Positions 44,331 to 61,511 of a DNA stretch of 64,000 nucleotides are shown piece by piece. Below the pieces are notes generated by a model. The model was not told the origin of the DNA. It searched no databases and saw nothing but the letters and a program-made list of their open reading frames with translations. The translations under genes and the position numbers were made by a program. This DNA is from Thermoplasmatota archaeon (lineage in GTDB: Archaea > Thermoplasmatota > Thermoplasmata > UBA10834), in NCBI GenBank assembly GCA_018818785.1, contig JAHIRF010000012.1, positions 38,259 through 102,258 on the forward strand, given 5' to 3'. Numbering within the stretch: position 1 is the stretch's first letter; each line of letters starts with the position of its first letter.

Positions 44331-44825
44331 TTACCATTCTTCAGATAGATTTCGCCGATTAAACCACTCTGAGATGAGAGAACCCGCACTATTGAGCCTT
44401 TCAATTCTGCTAACGGTCTTCTCTGTGGGAGCATAATGTGTGCTGAGCCATTCCCATAGTATCTCTCTGGGACTATCGATAATTGTCCTGGTTCCAACTA
44501 TCATTATGTTCGCGTCTAGTTTCCTTCTTGCGTGCACCGCACTCATTTTGTTCGGACACATCGCAGCTCTTATTCCTCTGAACCGGTTGGCAATGATTGC
44601 CATCCCTTGCCCCGTCGAACAACACAGGATTCCAGAGCTTGCCTCTCGTTTCAGAATCATACCTGCGACTTCGACTGCAAATTCTATATAATCGACTGGA
44701 TTCTCGGAATGTGTCCCAATATCTTGGTGATTGACTCCAAATTCCTTGAGAGAAGCTATCAAGGATGACTTTAATTCATAGCCTCCGTGGTCAGATCCAA
44801 TGGCAATGATATCACTGGAATTCAT
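44331..44825 (-). CDS. RpiB/LacAB-family sugar-phosphate isomerase
   Basis: The protein has 164 residues. AIGSDHGGYELK is at the N-terminus and the catalytic-cysteine region is ILCCSTGQGMAIIANRFRGIRA (ICGTG in E. coli RpiB). MIVGTRTI follows near residue 120. The family interconverts aldose and ketose phosphates such as ribose 5-phosphate and ribulose 5-phosphate. ATG 44825 follows GGAGG at 8 nt; an upstream ATG at 44840 lacks one. It is the last intact gene of the leftward unit. Alongside the phosphorylase gene it may process a (deoxy)ribose phosphate, which is inference. Confidence 0.85.
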   Translation of the reverse strand: MNSSDIIAIGSDHGGYELKSSLIASLKEFGVNHQDIGTHSENPVDYIEFAVEVAGMILKREASSGILCCSTGQGMAIIANRFRGIRAAMCPNKMSAVHARRKLDANIMIVGTRTIIDSPREILWEWLSTHYAPTEKTVSRIERLNSAGSLISEWFNRRNLSEEW

Positions 44826-44857
44826 ATTCCAATCCTCCATTCCATGTACAAATTCGT

Positions 44858-45241
44858 CTAGTCCCTCTCAAAGAACTCAAGGACGATTCCATTGCAGTCC
44901 CTAAAGAAAACATATGTGCCTCCGGTCGAACTTCGTTGGGGTTTTCCGAGGAATCTCTGGTTCTTCTTGCTTCTTGAATAGATATCCATGATGTCATCGA
45001 CTTCAAAGGACAAATGCTTGATCCCTGCTGTTCGCAAATCGGCATGAATATCGTCATCATATGGCATCGTCCCGACGTTCGGAGAACAGAAGAGTTCAAG
45101 TCTAATGTCTCCCAATGTCATCCATGCTCTCTCACGGTCATTCTTATGTTCAAGAATGTCAAGTTTGAATCCAAGGTTCTCATAGAACTCAATTGACTGC
45201 TTGATGTCCAACACTGTCAGTGCTATATGTTCGAGTCTCAT
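44858..45241 (-). CDS. VOC-superfamily (glyoxalase/bleomycin-resistance-like) protein
   Basis: The protein has 127 residues. Its two beta-alpha-beta-beta-beta modules are LEHIALTVLDIKQSIEFYENLGFKL and IKHLSFEVDDIMDIYSRSK...TYVFFRDCNGIVLEFFE. The ligand positions His (EHIAL), Glu (RLELF), His (KHLSF) and Glu (VLEFFE) fit a metal-binding VOC enzyme such as lactoylglutathione lyase or methylmalonyl-CoA epimerase. In antibiotic clusters such proteins also act as resistance or tailoring enzymes. ATG 45241 is chosen over TTG 45253. Confidence 0.8.
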   Translation of the reverse strand: MRLEHIALTVLDIKQSIEFYENLGFKLDILEHKNDRERAWMTLGDIRLELFCSPNVGTMPYDDDIHADLRTAGIKHLSFEVDDIMDIYSRSKKNQRFLGKPQRSSTGGTYVFFRDCNGIVLEFFERD

Positions 45242-45266
45242 TTCACTTCTCAATCCCCTTTGTCAT

Positions 45267-45980
45267 CTATCTCTCCTTTGAATTTCCGCCCATTGCGATG
45301 TGTATCGCAACATCAAGTATTTGTTTCATTCTAATCCGCGTTCCATTATCCAATCTGAGACTTCTATTCCTGTTCCCATCACATGTGTCAGAATCAGAAT
45401 TGAAGATTGGATCTCTGGTGATATTCTCAGATACAACTAGGATGATAAATGATCTCTTGCCTCTTGTTTGGGATAGGAATTCCGACGACTCCATATCGAT
45501 ACCCAAGTAGCCTTCTCTCTGCAGTCTTCTCACGAGTTCAGGAGTCTCTCTTCGGATACAATCAATGCTATATACGCTGCCATAAATGGGCTCGCTATCG
45601 ATTTGTCCAAGAAGCTTGTTCATTCTATCGTTGATTGATAGGCCAGGATAGTAGTTGCCTCTCCGTCCATTAAAATCGTCGCTTGCCTTATCAGGGAGAA
45701 TCATTCTTCCTGCAGAGATATCTTCTCGGAGCGCTCCTACAAATCCTACTCCAATGAAGAGATTTGACATGGTCAAATATCCCTTGACAGCTTTCTTGAT
45801 TTCACGGGGCCCCGAGTGCACTCCCGTGATTAGCACTTTCTCCCCATCTTGTTGGACAATCATGGGACTATCGTACGGAGAGTCCGGATTAGCAATCTGT
45901 CTTAAGAGACCATACTCTAAGGCAATCCTGGAACAACTTCCGCCGAATGTGAATATCACACCTCTACATTCAGATTCCAA
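45267..45980 (-). CDS. Nucleoside phosphorylase-like protein (PNP/MTAN fold)
   Basis: The protein has 237 residues. The N-terminal VIFTFGGSCSRIALEYGLLR, the phosphate/ribose region LFIGVGFVGALREDISAGRMILP and GYLGIDMESSEFL (the MEMEA-like ribose-contact motif) match the PNP/UDP family. The catalytic acid position reads VVSENIT, with Glu where the family usually has Asp (SD). Family enzymes cleave nucleosides to free base. It lies between the radical SAM and VOC genes. In this cluster a role on 5'-deoxyadenosine, MTA or SAH is plausible, or on a nucleoside intermediate of the product. Confidence 0.75.
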   Translation of the reverse strand: MESECRGVIFTFGGSCSRIALEYGLLRQIANPDSPYDSPMIVQQDGEKVLITGVHSGPREIKKAVKGYLTMSNLFIGVGFVGALREDISAGRMILPDKASDDFNGRRGNYYPGLSINDRMNKLLGQIDSEPIYGSVYSIDCIRRETPELVRRLQREGYLGIDMESSEFLSQTRGKRSFIILVVSENITRDPIFNSDSDTCDGNRNRSLRLDNGTRIRMKQILDVAIHIAMGGNSKER

Positions 45981-45996
45981 ATCGATTCCTCTCCGA

Positions 45997-47601
45997 CTAC
46001 CTCGATTGTACAGACGCGAGTCTGGTAAGGAATTCCCTTTCTGAGACTATCACTGTATCCCCGATTAGCAGTTGCCAAGGGAGAATCTCAGATGGATTGA
46101 TGCGTCTCCTGAAGAAATCATAGCAGGGGAGACCAAATTCCGTAAGCAGATTCTCTATGGTCGGTTTATCAAGGGATTCTAGTTTGATTCCTCTCCTATA
46201 TAATTCAAGTAAAAGGCCACCGGTCCTCCGATCTCCTCTATATGCGATTGTCTCATATAGATATGTTCCAGGGTTTAATACGTGAATCGATGATGACTGT
46301 CTGATATGTGAATTTCTGAGGATATCATCAAATCCATTGGTCAATTCAGTCAGATGTCTCTCAATATTCTCGACATCCTCATATTCGCATCTCTGCATCG
46401 GTGTGCAGGGGGTTGGTACTAAGGGATTAGTCCGTATAGAGAGGCCCCGAATATTATTATGATTCTCATCTGCAATGTTCTTGACGAAATTTATAATGGC
46501 CATCCTATCATCTTTCCTTTCATGCGGAAGACCAATCATGAAGTACAATCCAATTCGGTTCAGACCTTTGGATATCATCATTTTGATATTCCTTTCAACC
46601 AATTGAGGATCCATATTCTTTCCCAGCAGTCTGAGCAAATCTCTTGATGGAGTTTCGATTCCAAACGTCAACATTCTCGAATCCACACAAGATAATCCAG
46701 AATATTCTGTAATGCTGTGATCCGTACAATTGAGGGATGCAAGTCTGCTTCCTTTCTCATCATTGAGTTCATCTGCCCGGAGAGAACCCATGACTATTCG
46801 ATGCCCGCTCTTGCGCAGGTATTCTATGATTGCGTCAAATTCGCTGTGCTGTGTTATTGATGCTGAATTCACGATTAAAGTGTTTGTATTGCGATTTTCA
46901 AGATTGGAGACCTCCCTCTTGATATTCACCAAATCTGCTTCGACATAATGCCAGTACCATGTCAATGCACAGAAGTAACATTTTTTGCGACAACCAGTAT
47001 TCATCAGAATACTCACGATGCCATTGCCATCGGATGAACAATAGAATCTCGGGCGGGTCTTGTCTTTATTGAAGTGCAACTCATATCTGGATTTGATGCT
47101 CTTGATAGTGTGATCATTATTGAACTCAGGATTGACCAAGGATGGAATGTAAATGTCTGGAATGTCAGTCAATCCCCATAATCTGGACTTTCTATCGCGC
47201 TCACTGGGGGTCTGTTTTGAGAGATGTCGCACAATGCTGATGAGAGACTCCGAGGAAGGACTTGTTACGGCGATGTCTATGAATTCCGCGAGTGGTTCGG
47301 GATTCGGAAGCCCTATCCCTCCAACAACCACAAATGGATATTCACTGGTTCTATCTACGGAATGGAAAGGTACATCCATCTTCTTGAGAGCCGCGAAAAT
47401 GAGAGGGTATTGAAGTGAATTCACAACAGACATAAGAATAACGTCAAAGGATTTACCATCGATCCTCTGTGAATCATCGACGAAGTGCACCTCTGTATGA
47501 ACATTGCCCAGACTTCGCAAGTCCACCAATATATTCAATAGACCTAGTTGGAGGCCATAGAGTTCAGGGGGCGTGAATGAGATTGCGGCAATTCGCATCA
47601 T
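45997..47601 (-). CDS. Radical SAM protein with B12-binding-like N-terminus
   Basis: The protein has about 534 residues. The N-terminal ~150 residues look like a Rossmann-type domain, with FVVVGGIGLPNPEPLAEFIDIAV as in B12-type radical SAM proteins. The iron-sulfur motif is TGCRKKCYFCALTW (CxxxCxxC, about 206). Barrel motifs include LTFGIETPSRDLLRLLGKN and LYFMIGLPHE. The C-terminal ~120 residues have no recognised domain. It overlaps or abuts the nucleotidyltransferase gene. ATG 47601 fits GGGTGAT at 9 nt; a GTG at 47616 overlaps the previous stop. Reaction unknown: methylation or C-C chemistry are typical for the class. Confidence 0.78.
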   Translation of the reverse strand: MMRIAAISFTPPELYGLQLGLLNILVDLRSLGNVHTEVHFVDDSQRIDGKSFDVILMSVVNSLQYPLIFAALKKMDVPFHSVDRTSEYPFVVVGGIGLPNPEPLAEFIDIAVTSPSSESLISIVRHLSKQTPSERDRKSRLWGLTDIPDIYIPSLVNPEFNNDHTIKSIKSRYELHFNKDKTRPRFYCSSDGNGIVSILMNTGCRKKCYFCALTWYWHYVEADLVNIKREVSNLENRNTNTLIVNSASITQHSEFDAIIEYLRKSGHRIVMGSLRADELNDEKGSRLASLNCTDHSITEYSGLSCVDSRMLTFGIETPSRDLLRLLGKNMDPQLVERNIKMMISKGLNRIGLYFMIGLPHERKDDRMAIINFVKNIADENHNNIRGLSIRTNPLVPTPCTPMQRCEYEDVENIERHLTELTNGFDDILRNSHIRQSSSIHVLNPGTYLYETIAYRGDRRTGGLLLELYRRGIKLESLDKPTIENLLTEFGLPCYDFFRRRINPSEILPWQLLIGDTVIVSEREFLTRLASVQSR

Positions 47602-47612
47602 TCCCAGGCATA

Positions 47613-48128
47613 TCACCCAGTTTCATGTCGAGATTCCTGTGAGAGTGTTTGTTCAATCAATTCTGCTCTTCTGATTCTTCCTGTCTCGCGAGAGCGTCTC
47701 AATTCAAGTTCGAGTGGGAAGAAACTCAATTTATATCCGCACAATTCATCCTTGATCGCGTCTGAGAGGTTGAATAGATTTCTCCAACGTCCCTCTCTCC
47801 AATAAGTGAGTTCTGCTACTACATCTACTTGGATATCACGCATTTCATAAGTACCAAAGAATGCTCTCAATCTGACCTTTGTCGTCTCCGTCTCCTTTTC
47901 TGTGATTCTATATTCAGGCGCAGCAATCCGGTGATTGGAAAGTAGATTGTCAGTAAGGAGTACTCCTTCCTTGGTTGTCAGAACGTCGATATCTTTTGGC
48001 ACAATATCTACTCCCTGAAGAAACAAACCCGTGCCTCCCATGAATGACCATTCTAATTCGGAATCATCGAGCATCTTGGCTATTCTCAGGATTACTCTTC
48101 GGAAGTTCTCGAGATTTCGTTCGTTCAT
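47613..48128 (-). CDS. Small nucleotidyltransferase-fold protein
   Basis: The protein has 171 residues. The motif FMGGTGLFLQGVDIVPKDIDVLT carries the GG...DxD pattern of the nucleotidyltransferase fold, as in lincosamide nucleotidyltransferases and AbiEii-like proteins. A third acidic position is in IQVDVVAEL. Enzymes of this fold transfer NMP to small molecules, tRNA or proteins. It lies between thrS-like and the radical SAM gene with an overlap on one side and a 1-nt gap on the other, so it is part of the operon. The substrate is unknown; AMP transfer to the cluster product or to tRNA are options. Confidence 0.65.
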   Translation of the reverse strand: MNERNLENFRRVILRIAKMLDDSELEWSFMGGTGLFLQGVDIVPKDIDVLTTKEGVLLTDNLLSNHRIAAPEYRITEKETETTKVRLRAFFGTYEMRDIQVDVVAELTYWREGRWRNLFNLSDAIKDELCGYKLSFFPLELELRRSRETGRIRRAELIEQTLSQESRHETG

Positions 48129-48129
48129 G

Positions 48130-50055
48130 CTAAATCACTAGCTGATATCCAAGAGTCTTTGTTTTGATTTTGCATATCACAGATTCACAGAAGCTGTCTG
48201 TCGATAACTGATTATATGTCTCATTGTCTAGGGTCCGGACAGAGATACAGGATTCATTCTCCTCTTGGGATCCAATGATTACCATGTACGGGATTCTTTC
48301 TTTGTGGGCCATTCTTATCTTCTTTGAGATGCTGTTCTGCGAATCATCAATCTCGGTGACGAGGCCGAGATTCCTCAGTTTGTCTGCAACCGTCCGAGCA
48401 TATCCAAGTTGTGAATCCGTCACTGGAAGGACTCTGATCTGAATAGGGCAGAGCCAGAGTGGGAATTTTCCACCATAGTGCTCTATGAGAATTCCAAGAA
48501 ATCGCTCGATGCTTCCGAAAACGACTCTATGTATCATGACCGGTCTTCGACTTCCACCATCACTGCTCAGGTACTCGAGATTGAATCTCTCGGGCATTGA
48601 GAAATCCAATTGGATTGTACCGCACTGCCAGTATCTACCGAGACAATCTCTTATATGGAAATCGATTTTCGGGCCATAGAATGCGCCTTCCTTCTCTTTA
48701 ATCCTGAATGCCATATTCCGTTTCCGGAGGACCTCCATGAGAATAGATGTGGACCTCTCCCATGTCTCTACATTGCCAATGAATTGCTCAGGTCTCGTAC
48801 TCACATCCACAACATATGAGAAGCCAAACACTCTATACGTGTTGTCAATCAATCGAATAACCTTGTCCAGTTCATCTGCAATCTGAGATTCCATTAGAAA
48901 TATGTGTGCATCATCCTGTCTGAATGCTCTTACTCTGAACAGGCCTGATATGACTCCTGATAATTCATGTCTATGGACCAGTCCAATCTCCGAATAACGT
49001 AATGGCAGATCCCTGTATGAGTGAATGATATTCTGATAGACAAGAATGGCTCCAGGACAGTTCATTGGTTTAATGGCATATTCCCGTTCATCCAGGGCAG
49101 TTATCAACATATTTTCAGCATATTTGTGCCAGTGACCTGATTGAAGCCAGAGATCCTTGGTCAGCAGTATCGGCGTGCTAATCTCCTGATATCCTTCATT
49201 TCTATGCGTATCTCGCCAGAATTCCACGAGTCGATTGACTATTGTCATGCCATTAGGTAACAAGAACGGCATACCTGGATTATCTTCTTCGAGCATGAAT
49301 AAGCGAAGGTCCTTGCCAATTCTCCTGTGGTCTCTCTTCTCCAATTCCTTGCATTCCTTCTGATGGAGCACGAGGTCTTTCCTTGAAGGAAAAGCTACTC
49401 CAGATATTCTCTGCAACTGGACATTTCTGCGGTCTCCTCTCCAATGGACTGCCGATACGCTCTTAAGTTCGAAGGCATCACTATCGATTTCTCGGAGGTT
49501 CAACAGATGAGGGCCATGGCAGAGGTCTGCGAAATCGCCAAGGTGCCACACGACATGATCCTCAGAATTCTCATCCAATCCTTCTATTATGGTCTTCTTG
49601 AATGCGTTTTCTCGAAACATGTAGAGGAGGTCAGTCTTGGATAGTCTTTCAATCTGAGGGGTTTGTGCGTCTTTGAGGATTTCAATCATGATCTTCTGCA
49701 GTTGTGACATTGTCTCTTCAGTTATCGGATTCGTTTTGAAGTCATAACTGAATTCGTTCTGACCAGAGGAGAGCGATGCCATTGTCGCATCGGGAATGAT
49801 TCTAGACACTGCTCTTGCCAGAACATGAGCGAGCGAATCACATACCAGGGTCATCCCTTCTGGGTCTGTGATTTTCAAGGTGGTAATCTCAGAAGAATCG
49901 GTTATCTCGTCCCTCAACGAGAGCACTCGGGAAGAAATCTTAACTCCCAAGATTCCTTTAAGGTCCCCACCATATCGCTTCCTGAGAATCTCAAGAATGG
50001 TCATTCCCGGCTTGCAGTCTCCTAAATCCTCTTCATCGACTGAAATCCTCACCAT
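48130..50055 (-). CDS. Threonyl-tRNA synthetase homologue, bacterial type, altered editing site
   Basis: The 641-residue protein has TGS, N2 editing, class II catalytic and anticodon-binding domains in bacterial order. Zinc ligands are kept: Cys in MNCPG, His in DDAHIF and His in VMIHRV. Two conserved positions differ. The editing motif HxxxH (H73/H77 in E. coli) reads HVLAR, and the normally invariant MNCPGH reads MNCPGA. Editing residues D, C and H of DLCHGPH remain. ATG 50055 follows GGGTGA. In known clusters an extra ThrRS gives self-resistance (borrelidin, obafluorin). Here resistance, or supply of Thr-AMP or Thr-tRNA to the pathway, are the two readings. Whether the genome has another thrS is not visible. 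Confidence 0.88.
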   Translation of the reverse strand: MVRISVDEEDLGDCKPGMTILEILRKRYGGDLKGILGVKISSRVLSLRDEITDSSEITTLKITDPEGMTLVCDSLAHVLARAVSRIIPDATMASLSSGQNEFSYDFKTNPITEETMSQLQKIMIEILKDAQTPQIERLSKTDLLYMFRENAFKKTIIEGLDENSEDHVVWHLGDFADLCHGPHLLNLREIDSDAFELKSVSAVHWRGDRRNVQLQRISGVAFPSRKDLVLHQKECKELEKRDHRRIGKDLRLFMLEEDNPGMPFLLPNGMTIVNRLVEFWRDTHRNEGYQEISTPILLTKDLWLQSGHWHKYAENMLITALDEREYAIKPMNCPGAILVYQNIIHSYRDLPLRYSEIGLVHRHELSGVISGLFRVRAFRQDDAHIFLMESQIADELDKVIRLIDNTYRVFGFSYVVDVSTRPEQFIGNVETWERSTSILMEVLRKRNMAFRIKEKEGAFYGPKIDFHIRDCLGRYWQCGTIQLDFSMPERFNLEYLSSDGGSRRPVMIHRVVFGSIERFLGILIEHYGGKFPLWLCPIQIRVLPVTDSQLGYARTVADKLRNLGLVTEIDDSQNSISKKIRMAHKERIPYMVIIGSQEENESCISVRTLDNETYNQLSTDSFCESVICKIKTKTLGYQLVI

Positions 50056-50610: not shown

Positions 50611-51885
50611 TCAAAGAGTGCGTTCGGGAGAGATACTGCGAGTGTGCGTCTCTGGAACAAAGAGGAAGACTATTAGCGTTGCAGCTGCAATGGCGATGCA
50701 ACATGTCAAGAGAGGAATTTCTGGTCCCACTCCAACGAATAGCAATCCCAGAGCAGAGAATCCAAAGACTGTTCCGATACCTTTGACCATGAGATAAGTG
50801 CCCATCATACTCCCCATCTTTCCATTCTCGATGAGGTCAGCAAAGGTCGCCCCTATCGATGGATTCGACATGGCCGTCCCCAATTCCGCAATGATGACGA
50901 AGATGCACACAGACCAGAAATCAAATGCAATTATGTTGAGACCAACTCCGACAGACATAGCTAACCCTCCTGCCAGAATAAGCCCTCTTCTGCCATACCG
51001 ATCCGAACATGTCCCGAATGGAATTATGGCAATAGCACTCACTATAGCACCAATAGTCAGTAGCACTCCAACCTCGGTTTCATTCATATGAATCCTTGAG
51101 TACCAGAACAATATCAGCCCAAGATCCCAAAGTGCGGTGACGATTCCCATTATGAATCCTCTGAAAGTCAATGCTACTACAATTCGATTACACCTGATTC
51201 CTTCCCTCCATTTCTTCATGGAAAATCTTGCTGGCTTACTTCTTGCTACATGTTCAGCATGTGAATCATCAATTGTCAATACTAGTACTGCACAACATAC
51301 TGAGATTGCGGCAGTGACATAGAATGGTGAGTAGATGCCTAGATTCGCTGCTAGGAGTCCACCAATCCCAGGTCCTCCAAGGGCGCCGATAGACTCAGCG
51401 GTCCCGAGAGCTCCGAGCACAACGGCCTTATTCTCCTTTGGCGCAAGATTCACTGTGAGGGCAAAAACGGTTGGGCTCACCAGGCTGGCGCCAAATCCCT
51501 CAAGGGTTCTCAGAATTCCGAATTCTAGGGAATTCTGGGCATGTATCATCAAATAGGTTGTAACTCCAAATATCAGTACTCCTGAAGATATGCAGAACTT
51601 GCATCCAATCCTGTCAGATACGAGCCCCGCAGGCAATAATCCAATGATATAGGCCAGTGAATATAATGAATACGCAAATCCAAGGGTCGCCTCATCCATG
51701 TTGAGATTGTTCGTGGCAAACTTCGGCATTATCGGGGCAAGAATACCAAAACCAAGATTCACCACGATAATTGAAGCGAGCAGAATATTCAGATTCCTTG
51801 ACTTCCTGAATGTTCTCTTGAGCTCATTGAGTGTCGTCAGCAGTTTCTGAGCCTTCACAGGATGGATTCCCCTCGGCCATTTCAC
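50611..51885 (-). CDS. MFS transporter (drug-efflux type)
   Basis: The protein has 424 residues and about 12 transmembrane helices in two sets of six. Signature loops are GLVSDRIGCKF between helices 2 and 3 and FGTCSDRYGRRGLILAG in the second half. The motif-C-like LGGPGIGGLLAANLG lies in helix 5, typical of antiporters of the DHA1 group. It probably exports the cluster's product or a toxic intermediate. It is the first gene of the leftward unit and is divergent from the PqqD-like gene across a 166-bp gap with a perfect palindrome. Confidence 0.88.
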   Translation of the reverse strand: MKWPRGIHPVKAQKLLTTLNELKRTFRKSRNLNILLASIIVVNLGFGILAPIMPKFATNNLNMDEATLGFAYSLYSLAYIIGLLPAGLVSDRIGCKFCISSGVLIFGVTTYLMIHAQNSLEFGILRTLEGFGASLVSPTVFALTVNLAPKENKAVVLGALGTAESIGALGGPGIGGLLAANLGIYSPFYVTAAISVCCAVLVLTIDDSHAEHVARSKPARFSMKKWREGIRCNRIVVALTFRGFIMGIVTALWDLGLILFWYSRIHMNETEVGVLLTIGAIVSAIAIIPFGTCSDRYGRRGLILAGGLAMSVGVGLNIIAFDFWSVCIFVIIAELGTAMSNPSIGATFADLIENGKMGSMMGTYLMVKGIGTVFGFSALGLLFVGVGPEIPLLTCCIAIAAATLIVFLFVPETHTRSISPERTL

Positions 51886-51969: not shown

Positions 51970-51981
51970 TTACCATGGTAA
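51970..51981. promoter_or_regulatory. Perfect 12-bp palindrome in the divergent cluster promoter region
   Basis: TTACCATGGTAA sits midway between the divergent MFS and PqqD-like genes, with A/T-rich boxes on both sides (TGATATTAAATAC near 51912). It is a candidate operator controlling both arms of the cluster. No regulator gene is evident within the cluster. Confidence 0.4.
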
Positions 51982-52051
51982 GAGATAACGGGATCATGAT
52001 GTCTGTTCGATGTGGGATCTGTAATATTCCCATGAGGTCTGAATCGAAAGA

Positions 52052-52375
52052 ATGATGATGCTATGTACATTTATGCATAACATGACAGTAATGAGAGAAT
52101 GTCAATTGGAGACATGTTGGAGGATAAGGGATGGTCTCGAACTTCGAGAATCCCCCTCGGGGGGAATTTTGTATGATTGTGAATCAAGAACATTGATGTG
52201 CCTGAATGAGACTGCTTTGAGAATCCTCAGCTTGTTCGATGGAAGGCGTACGATTGAAGAGATTATCGTAGTCATCACGGCAGAATATCCACAAGAGTCT
52301 GAAGAACTGCTCAGGGAATCTATACTTGAATTCATCCAAGAATCAATAGGTACCAATATCATTGTATGTGACTGA
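52052..52375 (+). CDS. PqqD-like RiPP recognition element protein
   Basis: The protein has up to 107 residues. The body reads LELRESPSGGILYDCESRTLMCLNETALRILSLFDGRRTIEEI. This is the PqqD pattern: three strands, then NETAxxILxLxDGxRTxxEI, then two helices. PqqD domains bind the leader of a ribosomally made peptide and hand it to a radical SAM SPASM enzyme; such an enzyme is encoded at 58.8 kb. The start is uncertain: 52052, 52082 and 52091 are all in frame and none has a strong ribosome site. It opens the rightward unit. Confidence 0.78.
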   Translation: MMMLCTFMHNMTVMRECQLETCWRIRDGLELRESPSGGILYDCESRTLMCLNETALRILSLFDGRRTIEEIIVVITAEYPQESEELLRESILEFIQESIGTNIIVCD

Positions 52376-53459: not shown

Positions 53460-54563
53460 ATGAAACTATTCGAATGGGAGGCTAAGAATCTCCTCAGTCG
53501 CTATGGGATCTTGGTTCCAGAAGGTTATGTGGTGCAATCACCCGCTGATATTCATGCGATGCCGTGGCCTGTCGTGATCAAAGCACAGATACTCTCTGGC
53601 AGTAGGGGTGTAGCTGGGGGGATCATGATTGCAGATACGATTGATGAGGCCAGACACGCTGCATCGAATATCATAGGTATGAATCTGAATGGCTTGAGGG
53701 TTCGACGAGTCCTGGTGGAGCGAAAGCTTGATACGAATAGAAATCTCTTCTTAGCTGCTATTGCTGACAATTATACTAAGAAGGTCATTTTTCTCGCTTC
53801 TCCGAATGGTGGATCAAGAGTAGAGACGGATTCAATCGGAGAACTGGTTGCAGTTCCAATAGCCCCTTCTGTTGGATATGAGTCGGAGGTAGCTACTCAG
53901 ATCTCCAGCCATCTTGGTGTGTCTGGCTATGATTCAGCGAGTATTGCTGAGGTGTGCCAGGCCATGTATGCAATGATAGAGAATGAGAAATGCATTCTCA
54001 TTGAATTCAATCCTCTTTCCATTCTCTCAGATAATCGTCTTGCAGCAATAGACGCCAAGGTTGCCATTGATAACACATGTCTTCCATCTGATGTTATTGA
54101 TCACTGCGGTTCGGTCTATTTGGGTGGCATAGAGGCAACGACTAGAAGATTGGGAATAGAGTACATAGACTATTGTGGAGAGATTGGTGTTATCTCGAAT
54201 GGACACGGACTTCTCTCTCTGACTTGTGACATCATCCATGCATTGGGTGGTTCTGTCGGCCCTGTGTTCAACGTTGGAGAGCATTTTTCCGAACGAGTTC
54301 TCCGGGAATCGCTCATTCTCATGAATCGATTACACCCTAGGGTGACATTCCTGAATGTCTTTTCGGGATTCCGTGATTGTGTCGAGATTTCCGAAGATGT
54401 GTATCATGGAATTCTTGAGTTTCATTATGATTTTCCGATTGTCTGCAGAATCAAGGGTCTGAATGAACAGACATCTCACGAGATGTTCGCAGAACGCGGC
54501 ATAGATTCCTCGTTGAATCTGCACGAGGCTGCATCTATGGCGTTCAGGTATTCTAGGGATTGA
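53460..54563 (+). CDS. Diverged SucC-like ATP-grasp protein
   Basis: The protein has 367 residues, the same length as the chromosomal SucC at 26 kb and alignable throughout (MKLFEWEAKNLLSRYGI against MKLYEFKAKELMRKHGI). ATP-grasp features are kept: VVIKAQILSGSRGVAGG, LIEFNPLSIL (metal Glu and Asn), DAKVAID and SNGHGLLSL. The C-terminal phosphate-transfer loop is altered: LNVFSGFRDC replaces LNIFGGITKC. A very strong ribosome site (GGAGGTGATTC) precedes ATG 53460. It is translationally coupled to the SucD-like gene. It probably phosphorylates the partner's histidine, activating a carboxylate as acyl phosphate. Confidence 0.85.
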   Translation: MKLFEWEAKNLLSRYGILVPEGYVVQSPADIHAMPWPVVIKAQILSGSRGVAGGIMIADTIDEARHAASNIIGMNLNGLRVRRVLVERKLDTNRNLFLAAIADNYTKKVIFLASPNGGSRVETDSIGELVAVPIAPSVGYESEVATQISSHLGVSGYDSASIAEVCQAMYAMIENEKCILIEFNPLSILSDNRLAAIDAKVAIDNTCLPSDVIDHCGSVYLGGIEATTRRLGIEYIDYCGEIGVISNGHGLLSLTCDIIHALGGSVGPVFNVGEHFSERVLRESLILMNRLHPRVTFLNVFSGFRDCVEISEDVYHGILEFHYDFPIVCRIKGLNEQTSHEMFAERGIDSSLNLHEAASMAFRYSRD

Positions 54564-54568
54564 TTCAT

Positions 54569-55429
54569 ATGCATTCCGAATCTATCTGGAATAGTAGAGT
54601 GGTGATCATGTGTTCTATGATCGAATCGAATCTACTCATTGTCGATGAGCTAATCGATTTCGGAACGAATGTCATTGCTCTGATTTCTCCGGGGAGTTGT
54701 CAAGAGTGTTATCGAAACGTGCCAGTCCAGAGAACTCTAGCAACATCTCTCAGAAAGAATGACATCGATGTCCTATTGATACTCGATTTCGAGGGGGACA
54801 TTGTCAAGATCTTCCATGATACAGTTGGGTCACAATTGTCGATTGCCATAATTGCATGTCCTGTATCTGCTTTCGAAATGACGCGTATCCTCGATATAAT
54901 TGCAGAGTCGAATCTTGTTGTCCTGGGACCGGAGAGTTGCGGAATTATGGCTCCTTCGCGCTTTATGTTGGGGACTATTCCAGGATTGGCACTTCGTGAC
55001 GGAGAGATTGGTTTGGTATGTACCTCTGGCTCACTAACTTATGAATCGATGGCAACTATGACTGAAGATGGATTGGGGTTATCAATGATCATCTGCGTGG
55101 GGACTGGAGCTATTATCGGAACATCTATCTGCGGTGCTCTGTCGTGTCTTGAAGAGGACGAAGAGACCAAGAAGGTGGTGTTGATTGCTGAATACAATGA
55201 AATTGACACGGAATTCATGGTAGAATTTATTCACAGTCATGTCTCGAAACCTGTTGTGATATGTCGAGTAGGTGGTAGTCTTCCTCCACTGCCTGACAAG
55301 ATGGGCCATTCGTCAGTCATCTTGCGGAAATATCACTCGGCAACTAGGAGTATCATCCGACTTCGTGAGAATTCCTGCATCTCATTCGCCAATTCATTAA
55401 GCGAAATAGCTGTGCTTCTAGGTTCGTGA
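54569..55429 (+). CDS. Diverged SucD-like protein lacking the CoA-binding loop
   Basis: The protein has about 286 residues. The phospho-histidine region is kept (PPLPDKMGHSSVILRKY against APPGKRMGHAGAII), as are LVVLGPESCGIMAP and GLVCTSGSLTYESM. The N-terminal glycine-rich CoA loop of SucD (GITGYQGTYHS) is replaced by MCSMIESNLLIV, and the following GVTPGKAGQ by LISPGSCQE. CoA is therefore unlikely to be bound in the usual way. A TTG at 54560 overlaps the SucC-like stop; ATG 54569 is the first ATG. With its partner it may form an acyl phosphate or join the acyl group to an acceptor other than CoA. Confidence 0.82.
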   Translation: MHSESIWNSRVVIMCSMIESNLLIVDELIDFGTNVIALISPGSCQECYRNVPVQRTLATSLRKNDIDVLLILDFEGDIVKIFHDTVGSQLSIAIIACPVSAFEMTRILDIIAESNLVVLGPESCGIMAPSRFMLGTIPGLALRDGEIGLVCTSGSLTYESMATMTEDGLGLSMIICVGTGAIIGTSICGALSCLEEDEETKKVVLIAEYNEIDTEFMVEFIHSHVSKPVVICRVGGSLPPLPDKMGHSSVILRKYHSATRSIIRLRENSCISFANSLSEIAVLLGS

Positions 55430-56072: not shown

Positions 56073-56885
56073 ATGAAAATATTGATTACCGGAATATCTG
56101 GGCATCTCGGACGAAATTGCGCAGACCTCTTTGAAGAATCTGGTTATGAGATATCAGGCATCTCCAAAGGAGATCATTCTGACATGAATAACTGCAAGTA
56201 TTCGAAAAGTGTTGATATCTGCGATGTGAGGCAATTGAATGCACTGGTAGAGGAACCTGATGTGGTGCTTCATCTCGCAGGACGCCTGCGTCGGACTGAC
56301 ACTCCATCGGATATCATCTTGTCAAATGTCCTTGGGACGATTAATGTCGCACGAAGATTTCCGAATTCACGTTTGATACATGCTTCGTCGATGTCTGTAT
56401 GTTCTTCAAAGCAGACTGTGTACTCGATATCAAAGCTTCTTTCCGAAAGGGCAATAGAGGTGCTGCATAATGATTATGTCATTCTTCGACCCACCTATCT
56501 CTATGGTCATTACGATTCTAATAGTCGAATCGCGAAGATAATTCAAGACCTTTCGTCCGGGGCAATACCCACAATCGGCAATGGATTCGAATCAAGAGAT
56601 TATTTATTCTGCAGGGATGCCGCTGAAGCCATTCTTGAAATAGTGAAGAATGAGAATATCCATAACTGCACAATTGATTTGGGGACAGGCCTTGCGTATT
56701 CGATGTATGACATATATTCGCGTATAAGATCGATTTGGGGCAGTTGTCCGGACCCAGTTTCTGAAGATGATGAACCATCTACTCCATGGATTACGGATAC
56801 TGCGATGGCGAAGAGACTGTTGCGTTGGCGACCCAAGTATGACATTGACAGAGGAATTAGAGCGATGATTGAGGAGGCGAGATGA
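56073..56885 (+). CDS. NAD-dependent epimerase/dehydratase-like SDR
   Basis: The protein has 270 residues. The N-terminal Rossmann motif is MKILITGISGHLGRNCADLF (GxxGxxG). The catalytic YSISK is near residue 121, with a Ser in HASSMSV before it. The RPTYLYG and RDYLFCRDAAEAIL blocks are typical of extended SDRs acting on NDP-sugars. GGCGGAGGAG precedes ATG 56073. It overlaps the next radical SAM gene by 4 nt (ATGA). It may modify an NDP-sugar or a nucleoside intermediate; the substrate is not readable. Confidence 0.85.
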   Translation: MKILITGISGHLGRNCADLFEESGYEISGISKGDHSDMNNCKYSKSVDICDVRQLNALVEEPDVVLHLAGRLRRTDTPSDIILSNVLGTINVARRFPNSRLIHASSMSVCSSKQTVYSISKLLSERAIEVLHNDYVILRPTYLYGHYDSNSRIAKIIQDLSSGAIPTIGNGFESRDYLFCRDAAEAILEIVKNENIHNCTIDLGTGLAYSMYDIYSRIRSIWGSCPDPVSEDDEPSTPWITDTAMAKRLLRWRPKYDIDRGIRAMIEEAR

Positions 56886-58321
56886 GAGTGGCGGCAACGG
56901 TACTACTCGTGAATCCACCTCAACTCATAGAGAATATTCCGGATACAAAGGGTTCAGGAATATTGCTCTTTTCTGAAAACCTGCGAACATCGGTGATAAA
57001 TGCAGGATTGCTCTCCATCGCATCGTACCTTGACTCGTTTGGAATATCTGTACGTATACTAGATTTGTCGCAGCACAACGACTATGATTCATTGGGAAGT
57101 GAGATTGAATCATCCCTTCCGGAGATTGTTGGAGTGAGTTGCCCTAGCGCCTTGTCGTATCTTGAGTTTCTCAGATGCCTCTCTGTGACAAAAGAAGTAT
57201 CACCATCAATTGTAACTGTCGGAGGCGGGCAGCACGTTGGTCCACTAGGACGAAAGGTCTTCGATGACACAAGTCACCTTGATATCCTCGTCAGATCCGA
57301 GGGAGAACTCCCGATGCATCATATAGTCAGATGTGTCTTGCAGAAAAACGGACATCTATGCGACATTTCTGGTATCATTGCAAAAACCTCGGGTGGTGGG
57401 CTTCTTGAGACACCGTTTCCATCTCCTGTTGTGGAATTGGGAAAGATGCCTTTCCTGAAATATGATCTATATCCCAGATGCTGGACATTTACGCCATATG
57501 TGGAGGAAGGACGTGGATGTAGACACAAGTGTAACTTCTGTGTTACTCCCGGTATGATGTGTCGATATCGGGGAAAACCCCCTAGCAGATTCTTGGCTGA
57601 GCTCGATTTGGCTCGGGGTATATGGGGGGACGAGCCCATGTTTGCTGTGATGACTCCGGATTACGGTGCCAATCCAAGAGGTGCGCTACTCATAGCGGAT
57701 GGATTTGAGAAGCGTAAACTCACCTGGTGCACCGAATTCAGAGCAGATTCAGGACTTTGCAGGAAAGCAGACCAGTTGGTCACGAAGGGACTTCGTCTCC
57801 TGACGATTGGACTCGAATCTGCTAATCCAGATATCCTATTGCTCATGGGAAAGACTCATTCGCCTTCGAAGTACCTCGAGAGTGTGAGGAATCTGTTAGA
57901 CAAGAAGCCTGATGATTTAACTGTAAGGCTGAGCATGATCTTCTATATCGGTGAAACACATAGAACTCTATCCGACAACCTGAAGTTCTTGTGTCATTAT
58001 GCTGGATTGTATGATGCGTTGACATATACACCATTAGTTATCTATCCAGGCTCTGAGCTTGAGAAGGATTTCGATAGGTATTCGAGGGATCTTGGGTGCT
58101 CGAGATTACACACGCCTTTCTGGGACCAGCGACATGCTCACTTGTGTACTCCTTCGAGGTATTTCACTGCAGATGAAATGATTAACTTCTCTGGAATGGT
58201 AGAGCGCATCTTCTCAGATAGAGATGCTTGGATTGCGTCTAGATCGTGCTACTACCAGAGAAATGATGATCAATCTAGATCTCTTCTCAGGAATATCATA
58301 GATCCCGGTCAGACATGTTAA
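56882..58321 (+). CDS. B12-binding radical SAM enzyme
   Basis: The protein has 479 residues. The N-terminal cobalamin-type Rossmann domain (about 1-165) contains LLVNPPQ, LLSIASYLDSFGISVRILDLS and VTVGGGQHVGPLG. The radical SAM barrel has GRGCRHKCNFCVTPGM (CxxxCxxC, about 211) and LLTIGLESANPDILLLMGK. The DxHxxG cobalamin motif is not present, as in many of these enzymes. Class members methylate unreactive carbons or rearrange skeletons. It is coupled to the epimerase gene and followed by a 469-bp gap. Confidence 0.87.
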   Translation: MRVAATVLLVNPPQLIENIPDTKGSGILLFSENLRTSVINAGLLSIASYLDSFGISVRILDLSQHNDYDSLGSEIESSLPEIVGVSCPSALSYLEFLRCLSVTKEVSPSIVTVGGGQHVGPLGRKVFDDTSHLDILVRSEGELPMHHIVRCVLQKNGHLCDISGIIAKTSGGGLLETPFPSPVVELGKMPFLKYDLYPRCWTFTPYVEEGRGCRHKCNFCVTPGMMCRYRGKPPSRFLAELDLARGIWGDEPMFAVMTPDYGANPRGALLIADGFEKRKLTWCTEFRADSGLCRKADQLVTKGLRLLTIGLESANPDILLLMGKTHSPSKYLESVRNLLDKKPDDLTVRLSMIFYIGETHRTLSDNLKFLCHYAGLYDALTYTPLVIYPGSELEKDFDRYSRDLGCSRLHTPFWDQRHAHLCTPSRYFTADEMINFSGMVERIFSDRDAWIASRSCYYQRNDDQSRSLLRNIIDPGQTC

Positions 58322-58790
58322 TCAGTAGTAGTGAGGTAGCAATCATCTGATTCGAGGTAGCGAATGTGCTGAATGGACAATGATGTAGTTCACACGTGTG
58401 CGATAATCTGCTTGTCATCCTAGCTGCTGGTGGAGACGGCACAGATTCAGCATGGTGTTCCCGGAGAAGATGCGTCGTCCTCGTTATAGCCTGATTATAG
58501 CCCTGGGCGAGTCTAGATGTGATGCGAATCGATTACATCTGATGGTGTGGAATTGAATCATTTCAGAACATTGTCACGCCAAGAGAATATCTTCATCTCG
58601 TTTCCATGTATATCTGTCAATTGGCGATGATTCATCTTCAGTGATACCCGTACTGATATCGGAACTTCAACCTAGTGACCATGAATGAATTATGTACCAT
58701 TGTCGTGTGATATCTTGATTAAGAATCTTGAGACAAATAGGCTAATATACCTCGTCGTCCTTTCGCAATGGTAAGCGTGAGGGGGTTCGA
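58322..58790. other. Gap between radical SAM genes
   Basis: 469 bp. One 32-codon frame (GTG 58396-58494) reads NLLVILAAGGDGTDSAW, which resembles the first strand and loop of NTP transferases and may be a second remnant of the kind seen at 55.7 kb. A TATA-like GGCTAATATACC near 58740 could serve the SPASM gene. Otherwise nothing is recognised. Confidence 0.35.
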
Positions 58791-59888
58791 ATGGGGGAAT
58801 TTTGCTCTCCTGAATATATGTACTTCTATGTGACAGAAGCATGTAACCTTAATTGTCGGCACTGTTGGGTTTCCGCAGGCCAGCCTGCAAGTCCGACACT
58901 TCAGCCAGCTGAGATCGTGAATGTGCTTCATCAATTGAACGACGCAGGCACTAAGAAAGTGAAATTTAGCGGCGGGGAGCCGTTTGCCAGACCGGACTTC
59001 TGTGAAATTCTAGAATCCATTCAGGACTCAAAGATGATGATCGAAATCGATACAAACGGATATCGAAGATTATCCATGGATGAGAAGGGAGTCTTGCAGA
59101 CTCTAGATGTTCGTCTCAATATCAGCATTGATTCACCAAATCCAAATATCCACGACGCATTCAGGGGAACCGGCGGTGCTCTCGAGAGAACTCTGTCAAC
59201 TATGCACGAATGCTGCGATCTGAATGTACCTTTTCGTGTAGTAACATGTTGCCAGGAGAATAATGCGCTTCCTCCCCTCATCGAATTGTCAATGAAGGTG
59301 GGGGCAGAGCGAGTGAGAATCATCTCAGATATCATGCCCGTTGGTCGCGCAGATTCTGGGTTCTCATGTATGGAAATTCAGAATATCATCGACAGATATC
59401 GCGTTATAGCAGATTGTCAGGAGCAGTATCGAGATTACGTTAGCAGCACAGTCCCTCCAGCGTTCGCTCGCCGTTCTGAATTCGAGAGAGATTGCAGATG
59501 GGGGGTGACAGTGTGCAGTGTGCTGTCAAATGGTGATATAGGTCCATGTGGTATTGGAAAGCATTTCCCCGAACTAATAGCCGGCAACGTTAGGTCCGAT
59601 GATATACTTGACATCTGGAGCTATTCACCGTTATTCGTTCGGATGAGAAACATTGATCTCCACAAACTTGACGGAGTCTGTGGATTGTGTAGATTCTCTG
59701 ATTCATGCGGAGGCATGTGTCGAGCTTTCACGTATTCAAGATATCGTAGTCTCAATGCCCCCTATCCTCCTTGTCAGGATATCTATGATTCAGGCTTGTT
59801 TCCCCCTGATGCTCTCCGGGCAAACGCACAAGTCGGAATCATTGATTCTGAAGAACTTGCTGGAGGAATACCATTACCGCTGAGGTGA
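58791..59888 (+). CDS. Radical SAM / SPASM enzyme (PqqE/MftC-like)
   Basis: The protein has 365 residues. The N-terminal radical SAM motif EACNLNCRHCWVSAGQP (CxxxCxxC, about 18) is followed by FSGGEPFARPDF and LNISIDSPNPNIHDAFRG. The C-terminal SPASM domain has cysteines in CRWGVTVCSVLSNGDIGPCG, then CGLCRFSDSCGGMC and a final Cys, enough for two auxiliary [4Fe-4S] clusters. SPASM enzymes modify ribosomal peptides with the help of a PqqD domain, and such a domain is encoded at 52 kb. It overlaps the flavoprotein gene by 4 nt. Confidence 0.9.
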   Translation: MGEFCSPEYMYFYVTEACNLNCRHCWVSAGQPASPTLQPAEIVNVLHQLNDAGTKKVKFSGGEPFARPDFCEILESIQDSKMMIEIDTNGYRRLSMDEKGVLQTLDVRLNISIDSPNPNIHDAFRGTGGALERTLSTMHECCDLNVPFRVVTCCQENNALPPLIELSMKVGAERVRIISDIMPVGRADSGFSCMEIQNIIDRYRVIADCQEQYRDYVSSTVPPAFARRSEFERDCRWGVTVCSVLSNGDIGPCGIGKHFPELIAGNVRSDDILDIWSYSPLFVRMRNIDLHKLDGVCGLCRFSDSCGGMCRAFTYSRYRSLNAPYPPCQDIYDSGLFPPDALRANAQVGIIDSEELAGGIPLPLR

Positions 59889-60448
59889 TTCTTGGGATAT
59901 GTGGCAGTTCTCGTAGAGATAGCAACGCCCAGTTCTTGCTCGATAGAGCTCTCCACGGTGCCAGACAATGTGGATATGAGACTTCTTCAATATCTGTGAG
60001 GGAGAAGAGAATAATGCCCTGCGAGGGCTGCGCTAGATGTGGTCTGGATATCCAAAGATGTAAATTAGATGACGATATGCAATCGATTTATAACGCCTTG
60101 ATGAATTGCAGCGGATTGATTGTCAGTACTCCTGTCTACTTTGGTGGCATAACCGGACAGATGAAAACTCTGCTTGATAGAACGCTTCTATTGAGCAGGA
60201 TTGGAAGAAGAATGGCTAACAAGGTCGGAGGAGTGATTTGCGTTGGCAAGAGGGGTGGTCATGAATTTGCAGGGTTATCAACAATGAATGTGATGAATCT
60301 TCAGGGAATGATTCTTCCCGGCAATGCGTCTGTTCATGTATTTGCGGATGAGCCAGGATCTGTTAGGGGGAATAGAGATTCTCTAGCACGAGCCGAAGAT
60401 CTCGGCAGAAGAATTGCCGAGCTTTGCGCATCATTATCTCCTGAGTAA
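59885..60448 (+). CDS. Iron-sulfur flavoprotein / NADPH-dependent FMN reductase family
   Basis: The protein has 187 residues starting at GTG 59885 inside the previous stop. Flavodoxin-like FMN loop GICGSSRRDSNAQFLLDRAL is followed by the compact cysteine motif CEGCARCGLDIQRCKLDDDM, a [4Fe-4S] site of iron-sulfur flavoproteins. VSTPVYFGGITGQMKTLLDR is the second flavin loop. It may supply electrons to the adjacent radical SAM enzymes or carry out a redox step on the product. Translational coupling to the SPASM gene supports a joint function. Confidence 0.88.
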   Translation: MILGICGSSRRDSNAQFLLDRALHGARQCGYETSSISVREKRIMPCEGCARCGLDIQRCKLDDDMQSIYNALMNCSGLIVSTPVYFGGITGQMKTLLDRTLLLSRIGRRMANKVGGVICVGKRGGHEFAGLSTMNVMNLQGMILPGNASVHVFADEPGSVRGNRDSLARAEDLGRRIAELCASLSPE

Positions 60449-60800
60449 TTTGCGATGAATCCAGCGACCGAGTCAAACTAGAAACACAATCACTGAAAAA
60501 ATCAGGTTCAAGGGGGTTTGAAATCAACATGACTATCCCATCGCTGAGATACTCACCATCTTGATTTCCTGGGAATCTTGAGCTTCCGCATTTTCGGTTT
60601 TATGAATCGCATATTCCATACCTCCGAGTGTTAATGAAATCAAAGCTATATATACTTTCGTCCCATGGTCACCCTGTATATGTCCTCCGCGTGTTCATAC
60701 AAAAATACAGGATACTGCAGACTGATGCAATCCCCATCAAAAACAGAAAAAGGGCATATTGGTTTGGTGAGAGATCACCTGGGTCGATATCTATTGTCAG
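60449..60800. other. Promoter region before the phosphoribosyltransferase gene
   Basis: 352 bp with no gene. It contains the strong TATA box described separately. The transcript would carry a long leader if translation starts at 60939. Confidence 0.45.
60645..60657 (+). promoter_or_regulatory. TATA box upstream of the phosphoribosyltransferase gene
   Basis: GCTATATATACTT is the best box A in this part of the window. Transcription would start near 60,680, giving the last cluster gene its own promoter. Confidence 0.5.
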
Positions 60801-60938
60801 GTGATGTGCGGCAGGCATCTGCATCACAATGTTGAAATACGAATAGATCCTCCAAGGCTTTCTATGAGAATAACGATGCCGTCATCAGAGATTGGGCTAA
60901 GCCCCAACCTTCCTATATCGCATCATCATGGTCTGCCC

Positions 60939-61511
60939 ATGGATATGATGAGGAGAATAAGACGGATTCCAGAGTTCAAAGGAGTGGTGTTTTGGGATAT
61001 CACACCCTTGCTCAGAGATGGCAGGGTATTCTGTCGATGTATATTGACATTAGCCGAATCATTTTCTGAACAAGACGTGAAGGTTGTTGCTGCAAATGAG
61101 GCTCGGGGGTTTATCATTGGTGCACCAATTGCACATCGTCTATCTGCTGGATTTGTACCGATTCGCAAGAGAGGGAAACTCCCACCGAGCGTACGCAGTC
61201 TCAGCTATATGAAGGAGTATGAGTCTGATGTTATTGAGATCAAGGATGATTCCATAGATAAGGGAGATACGGTATTGCTAGTGGATGATCTTTTGGCAAC
61301 AGGAGGAACAATCAAGGCCAACGCTGACTTAGTTCAGGGATTAGGTGGAGTCATCATTGGAATGGGCTTTTTCATTGAGCTAGGGTACCTTAATCCGAGG
61401 GCAAATCTGAGAGATTACAGCTGCATTCATTCACTGCTTGATATCCGGTCCACTGATGAATTCTGCATTGAAGCTTCGAATCAGACGGATTCTTGCCAAC
61501 GAATCGGGTAG
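60939..61511 (+). CDS. Adenine phosphoribosyltransferase-like protein
   Basis: The protein has about 190 residues from ATG 60939 (MDMMRRIRRIPEFKGVVFWDITPLLRDG), the usual APRT N-terminus. VVAANEARGFIIGAPIAHRL and the PRPP loop VLLVDDLLATGGTIKA (about 125) are intact. APRT makes AMP from adenine and PRPP. The frame is open to 60801, but the extra residues do not resemble APRT. Together with the nucleoside phosphorylase-like gene it could salvage adenine released from 5'-deoxyadenosine or MTA. It is the last gene before att 2. Confidence 0.85.
   Translation: MDMMRRIRRIPEFKGVVFWDITPLLRDGRVFCRCILTLAESFSEQDVKVVAANEARGFIIGAPIAHRLSAGFVPIRKRGKLPPSVRSLSYMKEYESDVIEIKDDSIDKGDTVLLVDDLLATGGTIKANADLVQGLGGVIIGMGFFIELGYLNPRANLRDYSCIHSLLDIRSTDEFCIEASNQTDSCQRIG

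Follow-up and report, generated by a model that had tools for sequence, protein, structure and literature searches.

An integrated island in the genome of a Thermoplasmatota archaeon carries 16 genes (a to p; Table 1) that, in the explanation we tentatively favor, produce and export a small molecule derived from a nucleotide. The likeliest product would be an adenosine-type nucleoside whose ribose has been radically modified and which may also bear an amino acid. The observed parts of this explanation are the gene content, the tight run of genes a to f, the boundaries of the island, the altered residues of f, j, and k, and the neighborhoods in which homologues are found. All of the named genes are intact ORFs, and Pfam and NCBIfam searches upheld the families assigned to them in a first-pass annotation of the window, the 64,000-nucleotide stretch analyzed here. 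Judged from its alignment with the host paralogue, p probably starts at 60939 rather than at 60801. Structure prediction gave mean pLDDT values of 43 for i and 41 for k.

Table 1. Genes of the cluster and landmarks of the integrated element (positions in the window)
Feature	Position	Strand	Basis
tRNA-Leu (CAA), integration target	31470..31555	+	ARAGORN
attL, 22-nt repeat, 3' end of tRNA-Leu	31540..31561	.	repeat comparison
Tyrosine recombinase (integrase) of element	32144..33121	+	PF00589 2.5e-24
a, RpiB/LacAB-family sugar-phosphate isomerase	44331..44840	-	PF02502 1.6e-38; TIGR00689 above cut-off, TIGR01120 below
b, VOC/glyoxalase-fold protein	44858..45253	-	PF00903 4.9e-15
c, nucleoside phosphorylase superfamily, divergent	45267..45980	-	PF01048 (PNP_UDP_1) 1.4e-7
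d, radical SAM enzyme	45997..47616	-	PF19864 + PF04055
e, ANT2''-like nucleotidyltransferase fold	47613..48128	-	PF10706 0.0016, below Pfam cut-off
f, extra threonyl-tRNA synthetase (ThrRS)	48130..50055	-	ThrRS profile 2e-185; residue analysis
g, MFS exporter	50611..51885	-	PF07690 9.4e-56
h, PqqD-like recognition element	52052..52375	+	PF05402 3e-10
i, nucleotidyltransferase-fold protein	52497..53225	+	PF01909 8.2e-6
j, SucC-like ATP-grasp subunit	53460..54563	+	PF08442 4.4e-35; residue analysis
k, SucD-like subunit	54560..55429	+	profile match; residue analysis
l, NAD-dependent epimerase/dehydratase-type SDR	56073..56885	+	PF01370 1.3e-27
m, B12-binding radical SAM enzyme	56882..58321	+	PF02310 + PF04055
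n, radical SAM/SPASM enzyme	58791..59888	+	PF13186 (SPASM); C-terminal motif APYPxCQxxYxxGxFP
o, iron-sulfur flavoprotein	59885..60448	+	PF03358 (FMN_red) 1.3e-26; CxxCxxCx6C
p, APRT paralogue	60939..61511 (ORF open from 60801)	+	alignment with host paralogue
attR, exact copy of attL repeat	61687..61708	.	repeat comparison

The proposal that the genes lie on an integrated island was confirmed and sharpened by a tRNA-Leu (CAA) gene, an adjacent tyrosine integrase, an exact 22-nt direct repeat of the tRNA 3' end (ATCCGGGCCCTCGCACATTATT), and a contrast in G+C content (0.446 in the island versus 0.553 in the host flank). Target tRNA gene, adjacent integrase, and direct repeat together characterize a tRNA-integrated element, here 30.1 kb long and flanked by the repeat; a third copy, of 20 nt, starts at 63732. 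The 16 cluster ORFs are uniform in G+C content (44%) and likewise in codon scores, and the set is foreign to its host and, in our explanation, horizontally acquired. Genes a to f are nearly contiguous (intergenic distances of 17, 13, 16, -4, and 1 nt), so the ThrRS f, radical SAM enzyme d, phosphorylase c, and RpiB a are probably encoded on one transcript. Four gene pairs overlap (d/e, j/k, l/m, and n/o), and wide gaps of 352 to 643 nt lie at k-l, m-n, o-p, and f-g. A palindrome at 51.97 kb, to which the first-pass annotation drew attention, does exist (TTACCATGGTAA, 51970-51981), but the window contains 19 perfect palindromes of 12 bp, against about 16 predicted from simple counting, and this one was rejected as evidence for an operator.

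Lack of co-occurrence of the genes elsewhere had been set beforehand as an outcome that would refute the cluster; it was half borne out. Sub-modules recur, but no second locus with the full gene set was found outside the host genome in the collections searched. The latter result would suit an accidental collection of unrelated metabolic genes that share a mobile island but no pathway, as would the wide gaps and the differing origins of the genes: p descends from the host lineage, f descends from a kind of ThrRS found in a different family of the class, and d and n have bacterial kin. We consider such a collection improbable, given the uniform G+C content and codon scores, the tight packing of a to f, the four overlapping pairs, and the recurrence of sub-modules in bacteria. 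The central proposal, an undescribed biosynthetic cluster on an integrated island that brings its own exporter as well as an additional aminoacyl-tRNA synthetase, is supported.

The cluster encodes three radical SAM enzymes, as first annotated; two had been called B12 type, but a recognizable B12-binding domain (PF02310) is present only in m, whereas d has PF19864 in its place and is of B12 type by family only. The CxxxCxxC motif is intact in all three proteins, as are the SPASM cysteines of n and the CxxCxxC..C cysteines of o, the likely electron donor to these enzymes. Against the housekeeping family TIGR03960, d scores 155.6 bits (cut-off, 462) and falls outside it; a tree separated d and three actinobacterial relatives from six housekeeping TIGR03960 proteins with 100/100 support. 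Each of those six genes has a TIGR03936-like match nearby, whereas NCBIfam searches found no such partner for d among the cluster proteins. RpiB and the phosphorylase accompany d-type enzymes and not the housekeeping TIGR03960 genes examined. The three recur together in an RpiB-DegT-radical SAM-phosphorylase block on plasmids pSCL4 of Streptomyces clavuligerus and pSTRVI02 of S. violaceusniger, with a variant in Streptosporangium NBC_01495 that combines a d-type enzyme, a phosphorylase, and a sugar-phosphate isomerase. Unlike the island, the actinobacterial block includes a DegT aminotransferase and a glycosyltransferase, and identities are only 25 to 30%. The RpiB a is about 30% identical to those of the Streptomyces blocks; c matches the PNPs of blocks L050 and L051 with E values of 3e-5 and 8e-5, shows only about 17 to 23% identity to actinobacterial phosphorylases, and is unusual in its active-site motif, VSEN where PNPs carry VSD. 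No product of the actinobacterial block was reported in the literature searched, and a plasmid search with i and c returned one weak PNP.

A scan of genome contigs with N-terminal radical SAM patterns gave a lower bound on the relatives of n that bear its C-terminal motif. The motif is present in 5/5 proteins of the phosphoribosyltransferase (PRTase)-linked set listed and in none of 77 other radical SAM proteins. A PRTase gene, for APRT or HPRT, adjoins the motif-bearing gene in all three bacterial lineages listed (Rhizobium, Petrachloros, and Parabacteroides), versus 0/77 of the others (P = 1.2e-5). The motif and the adjacent PRTase are what these operons share with the island; they also encode an MDR dehydrogenase and, in two of the three lineages, a PRPP synthetase, neither of which the island has, and n is just 30 to 33% identical to their enzymes and groups with this set with tree support of only 83/52. 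We found no characterization of such operons in the literature searched, and scans of viral contigs with m, n, k, ThrRS, and the n motif returned ordinary ThrRS only. Co-inheritance of p with the bacterial n operons was considered and rejected: p is closest to the APRT of the host itself, with 66% identity, which makes its position next to n a case of recruitment. It may also be a bystander, lying as it does at the edge of the island.

The occurrence of a PqqD-like element together with a SPASM enzyme is typical of RiPP pathways, in which h would present a precursor to n (and perhaps m) for cross-linking or methylation, the nucleotide genes supplying cofactors or a conjugated nucleotide. The PqqD match is significant; h is the only such protein found in the host genome, and the family is missing from almost all of 292 genomes of the phylum. 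The sister group of n (clade support, 100/99) includes loci with a PqqD-like gene and a small precursor-like ORF (L056, L057, and L071), and at the motif-bearing locus L055, tandem small repetitive ORFs, which are candidate precursors, adjoin the n homologue. Among NCBIfam models, n matches ScmF best and m matches ApyD best, but these scores and that of PqqD for h are all below cut-off (ScmF for n, 162 versus 400 bits; h, 19.6 versus 100 bits), which places the island outside the SynChlorMet-type (ScmF/ScmD) cassettes that it resembles in its best model for n and its PqqD. Moreover, n bears the motif of the PRTase-linked subgroup, missing from RiPP-type relatives, and no ORF in the intergenic gaps, on either strand, has the length, ribosome site, codon score, and leader-like start expected together of a precursor, although one may be encoded outside the cluster. 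A RiPP pathway would also leave the phosphorylase, RpiB, and APRT without a role, and we judge it unlikely. The peptide half of the original "modified peptide or nucleoside-peptide" is thus weak, a nucleoside-peptide fitting better than a plain RiPP.

The best homologue of m is from Nostoc (32% identity, 195 bits); the homologues in Nostoc and Burkholderia glumae adjoin P-loop nucleotide-kinase-like and dTMP kinase genes, and two further homologues have no kinase neighbor. Such neighbors, with TcmP in B. glumae and a TcmP/PDC-M30A-like gene on the island itself, could indicate defense or signaling, n and m making modified nucleotides against invaders as prokaryotic viperins and their kinases do; the PADLOC pVip models match n at 6.5e-20. 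We regard this as very improbable. The viperin NCBIfam score of n is below cut-off (54.5 versus 180 bits), and n has a SPASM domain (PF13186), which to our knowledge viperins lack. PADLOC matches among the eight cluster proteins scanned were limited to viperin-type scores for n, and neither an exporter nor a spare ThrRS is a hallmark of defense. Taken together, the closest relatives of d, m, and n are found amid genes for RpiB, nucleoside phosphorylases, PRTases, PRPP synthetase, and proteins resembling nucleotide kinases.

A nucleoside phosphorylase, an extra APRT, and radical SAM enzymes occur together here as in nucleocidin/ascamycin-type clusters. The nucleocidin cluster of Streptomyces calvus encodes NucJ, the phosphorylase NucPNP, and an APRT, NucV, 62% identical to the housekeeping enzyme (PMC8694150), compared with 66% for p. 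The island differs in being archaeal and in having an extra ThrRS, a SucCD-like pair, PqqD, and RpiB; because no sulfotransferase or related sulfamate-forming family was recognized among the 16 proteins by Pfam or NCBIfam, we did not assign it to this type. NucPNP, of the same superfamily as c, acts on MTA (PMC8694150), and adenine is reclaimed by APRT, so c, a, and p might only recycle 5'-deoxyadenosine, MTA, and adenine from the heavy by-product load of three radical SAM enzymes, while j/k, l, b, and m make the actual product, a small acid or sugar unrelated to these compounds. Such a salvage role is distinctly unlikely: RpiB and phosphorylase genes go with the d-type enzyme and not with the housekeeping TIGR03960 genes examined, and among the loci listed a PRTase occurs only with motif-bearing n.

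The residues of f point to a second, synthesis-competent ThrRS with a degenerate editing domain. The catalytic core retains 59/60 invariant residues, including the Zn ligands and core residues C334, H385, H511, R363, and D383, whereas the editing domain retains 18 and has lost 11 of 29 (Fisher P = 9e-6 versus the core). Changes at the editing site are H73D, R72C, G95L, P96S, G101E, Y103S, and Y173W; H77, Y104, C182, and H186 are kept. A borrelidin- or obafluorin-type resistance signature was sought and rejected: the sites linked to obafluorin (Y462 and G463) and borrelidin (L489) give none, the Met found in f at position L489 being present also in 7/36 panel sequences. A further ThrRS-like gene of the host (at C4) is 28% identical to f, and the host also has SucCD and APRT of its own; f, j/k, and p are therefore additional copies. 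Spare synthetases are found in other small-molecule clusters: for the AlaRS AcmD (ascamycin, acm) and the IleRS SbzA (SB-203208, sbz), self-resistance and/or aminoacyl transfer has been shown (PMC12945691). Unlike these, the island synthetase is a ThrRS and has a degenerate editing domain, and no AcmF-like truncated transferase was found.

The SucCD-like pair retains its ATP-grasp and phosphohistidine residues and has lost its CoA pocket. K41, E182, and N184 are kept in j, as is H250 with E211 and SGSLTYE in k, but the CoA-binding residues of k (QGxTGxQG, PGKGG, and VPAP) are all replaced, and 72/118 alpha-chain invariants are lost. Plasmid searches with SucC and SucD found only housekeeping-like proteins (31% identity or less).

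In the nucleoside pathway that we favor, d, m, and n, with electrons via o, would modify the sugar of a nucleotide or PRPP; c and p would take off or add the base, the roles of NucPNP and NucV in the nucleocidin pathway; and a, b, and l would rearrange sugar or acid intermediates. The CoA-less j/k pair could convert a carboxylate to an acyl phosphate on the phosphohistidine and pass it to a non-CoA acceptor, h could hold a substrate, either a peptide or a protein, e and i would nucleotidylate, and g would export the product. The synthetase f may be a drug-tolerant ThrRS or a source of (mis)charged tRNA-Thr to aminoacylate the product, as AcmD is in ascamycin. No kinase or dedicated aminoacyl-transferase gene was recognized among the 16. 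The PqqD-like h is hard to fit into a pure nucleoside route. In its fullest form, which we think unlikely, the pathway would be the first archaeal one for an aminoacyl-nucleoside antibiotic, an adenosine analogue with its ribose remodeled by three radical SAM enzymes and threonine (or a look-alike) joined via an editing-dead, immunity-giving ThrRS, and j/k would be a new class of phosphohistidine carboxylate ligase.

Few characterized archaeal small-molecule pathways are known, and none with this gene content was found in the literature searched. Two findings are independent of the product: a ThrRS that has lost proofreading residues and kept its synthetic site, and a SucCD-like pair that has lost CoA binding and kept its phosphohistidine. 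The SPASM enzymes linked to PRTase genes and the d-type enzymes linked to phosphorylase genes each form a family that can be tested, with nucleotides or sugar phosphates as the predicted substrates. If our explanation is correct, nucleoside-type pathways travel on mobile DNA in archaea and bring an aminoacyl-tRNA synthetase immunity gene with them, which would point to ThrRS as a target and provide a handle for searching.

The source genome, 1.97 Mb in size, scores 1491.6 bits with the archaeal SSU rRNA model, and the window maps to positions 38259 to 102258 of its contig C8, ending where the contig ends. ORF calling with Pfam and NCBIfam searches bore out the inventory of the first-pass annotation: every gene named there is an intact ORF of the family stated. 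Spacing within a to f is 17, 13, 16, -4, and 1 nt, and 4-nt overlaps occur at j/k, l/m, and n/o. Both ends of the cluster fall inside the stretch bounded by the tRNA-Leu 3' end and its 22-nt repeat, which agrees with the integrated island proposed earlier. G+C content rises from 0.446 across the cluster to 0.515 in the element's left part and 0.553 in the flanking host DNA. Since 19 such palindromes occur in the window, the one at 51970 was given no weight. The complete IS21-type element, with 55-nt inverted ends (91% complementary), separates the island's left part from the biosynthetic genes. The third copy of the tRNA-Leu 3' end bounds a second unit of ~2 kb, which we read as either a tandem element or a remnant left at that site.

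Features of the island and its surroundings (window coordinates)
Feature	Position	Details
Host SucC and SucD	25175-27140
tRNA-Leu(CAA)	31470-31555
Tyrosine integrase	32144-33121	downstream of tRNA-Leu(CAA)
Family D1	33136-39900	25-nt sequence, 4 imperfect dispersed copies, left part of island
SPL-like radical SAM (rSAM) gene and TcmP-like gene	33319-35438	adjacent; TcmP-like gene hits PADLOC PDC-M30A (3e-53), left part of element
IS21-type element	41537-43751	transposase 41581-42900, IstB 42900-43694
Minus-strand run		a RpiB, b VOC, c nucleoside phosphorylase, d rSAM, e nucleotidyltransferase, f ThrRS, g MFS
Plus-strand run		h PqqD, i nucleotidyltransferase, j SucC-like, k SucD-like, l SDR
Plus-strand run, continued		m B12-rSAM, n SPASM rSAM, o iron-sulfur flavoprotein, p APRT
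Unusually long gaps	50056-50610, 55430-56072, 58322-58790, 60449-60938	no convincing ORFs
tRNA-Leu 3'-end repeat	61687-61708	22 nt, exact
Second unit	61687-63754	NosD-like beta-helix protein, 61810-63456
tRNA-Leu 3' end, third copy	from 63732	20 nt, exact

The full set was not found elsewhere in the collections searched; sub-modules do recur outside the host phylum, in neighborhood comparisons that rest on a modest number of loci. Within the phylum, nothing close was found to k (60 and 292 genomes), h (292), m (243), or the n motif (389), nor to d (292) except one housekeeping-type match. The nearest d homologues, in S. clavuligerus and S. violaceusniger, lie in a block RpiB-DegT aminotransferase-rSAM-nucleoside phosphorylase, and the Streptosporangium block reads rSAM-kinase-like-sugar-phosphate isomerase-oxidoreductase-aminotransferase-phosphorylase. 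In a tree of only ten sequences, with a long d branch, d and these three actinobacterial homologues separate at 100/100 from a set of six TIGR03960 proteins; every one of the six has a TIGR03936-like match nearby.

A genome-wide scan and plasmid searches gave at least 81 relatives of n besides n itself, read as full ORFs. Among the matches listed, the motif APYPxCQxxYxxGxFP is confined to n and to relatives from Parabacteroides, Rhizobium (two), and the cyanobacterium Petrachloros. At each motif-bearing bacterial locus HPRT or APRT adjoins the rSAM gene, with an MDR dehydrogenase, and PRPP synthetase is present in two of the three lineages; these PRTases had no match at any other n-relative locus among the matches listed. 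The tree, built with the motif columns kept in the alignment, groups n with this set at only 83/52, and the enclosing 100/99 clade also contains PqqD-linked, RiPP-type maturases. The Rhizobium locus (L054:2789-11243) reads APRT-rSAM/SPASM-two small ORFs-NTP_transf_5-PRPP synthetase-MDR dehydrogenase; this apparently uncharacterized operon is conserved on plasmids of bean-nodulating Rhizobium, and its rSAM gene is on 35 Rhizobium plasmids. In Petrachloros mirabilis (L055:11543-12134), a tandem pair of homologous small ORFs containing Ala/Glu/Ser repeats, possibly precursor peptides or structural repeats, lies downstream of the PRTase-linked rSAM gene.

The best m homologue (Nostoc, 32%, 195 bits) adjoins a P-loop kinase-like gene, and that of B. 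glumae adjoins dTMP kinase. The kinase neighbor is absent at two further homologues examined (Rhizobium acidisoli and Solidesulfovibrio), so this link is weaker than those of d and n. A B. glumae homologue also adjoins TcmP and a Gp37/Gp68-type gene.

The modified-peptide product first suggested is made less likely by the precursor search, in which no gap ORF had a ribosome site together with codon usage like that of the cluster and a sequence resembling a leader. The long gaps may be decayed genes or regulatory RNA.

The host has its own SucC and SucD in the same window. k retains the phosphohistidine H250, its partner Glu, and SGxLTYE, with every CoA-binding motif replaced; j keeps the ATP-grasp residues and has lost half of the invariants. 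On the simplest reading, j/k would be a ligase making an acyl phosphate that is handed to an acceptor other than CoA. p shares 66% identity with the housekeeping APRT of the host and was therefore recruited from the host lineage, which weakens co-inheritance with the bacterial n operons; p and the Rhizobium and Petrachloros APRTs all score above the NF002636 cutoff (NCBIfam). Such recruitment matches nucleocidin, since NucV likewise has a housekeeping APRT paralogue in S. calvus (62%; PMC8694150).

The host genome encodes another ThrRS-like protein, 28% identical to f; among 145 phylum genomes, the ThrRSs closest to f (45 to 47%) come from a single family of the host's class. In a comparison with a 36-sequence ThrRS panel, whose E. 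coli entry matches the aligned 1qf6 chain, f has retained 59 of the 60 invariant positions of the core; in the editing domain the figure is only 18 of 29 (Fisher P, 9e-6). Among the editing residues it has lost are H73 (replaced by Asp), Y103, and Y173, and it retains the Zn ligands and the motif-2 Arg. Other panel members tested lose 0 or 1 of ~29 editing-domain positions, except a 744-aa protein that loses 8. Because the core is kept and editing residues are lost, we read f as a putatively synthesis-competent, proofreading-impaired ThrRS. The pattern suits a ThrRS copy able to tolerate a threonine mimic, or to use one, better than it does a random housekeeping duplicate.

The island combines a phosphorylase, a second APRT, rSAM enzymes, a spare aminoacyl-tRNA synthetase, and an exporter, a gene logic known from nucleocidin and ascamycin. 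In the former, NucPNP makes adenine and NucV attaches it (PMC8694150); in the latter, AcmD charges tRNA and confers self-resistance (PMC12945691). We found no sulfamate genes in the island and likened its rSAM enzymes to NucJ by gene kind, so we do not file it with those clusters. By analogy, and with all functions assigned by homology, the island may work in their manner. We tentatively suggest, at somewhat less than even confidence, that it makes an exported nucleotide-derived product; any exact structure would be far less probable.
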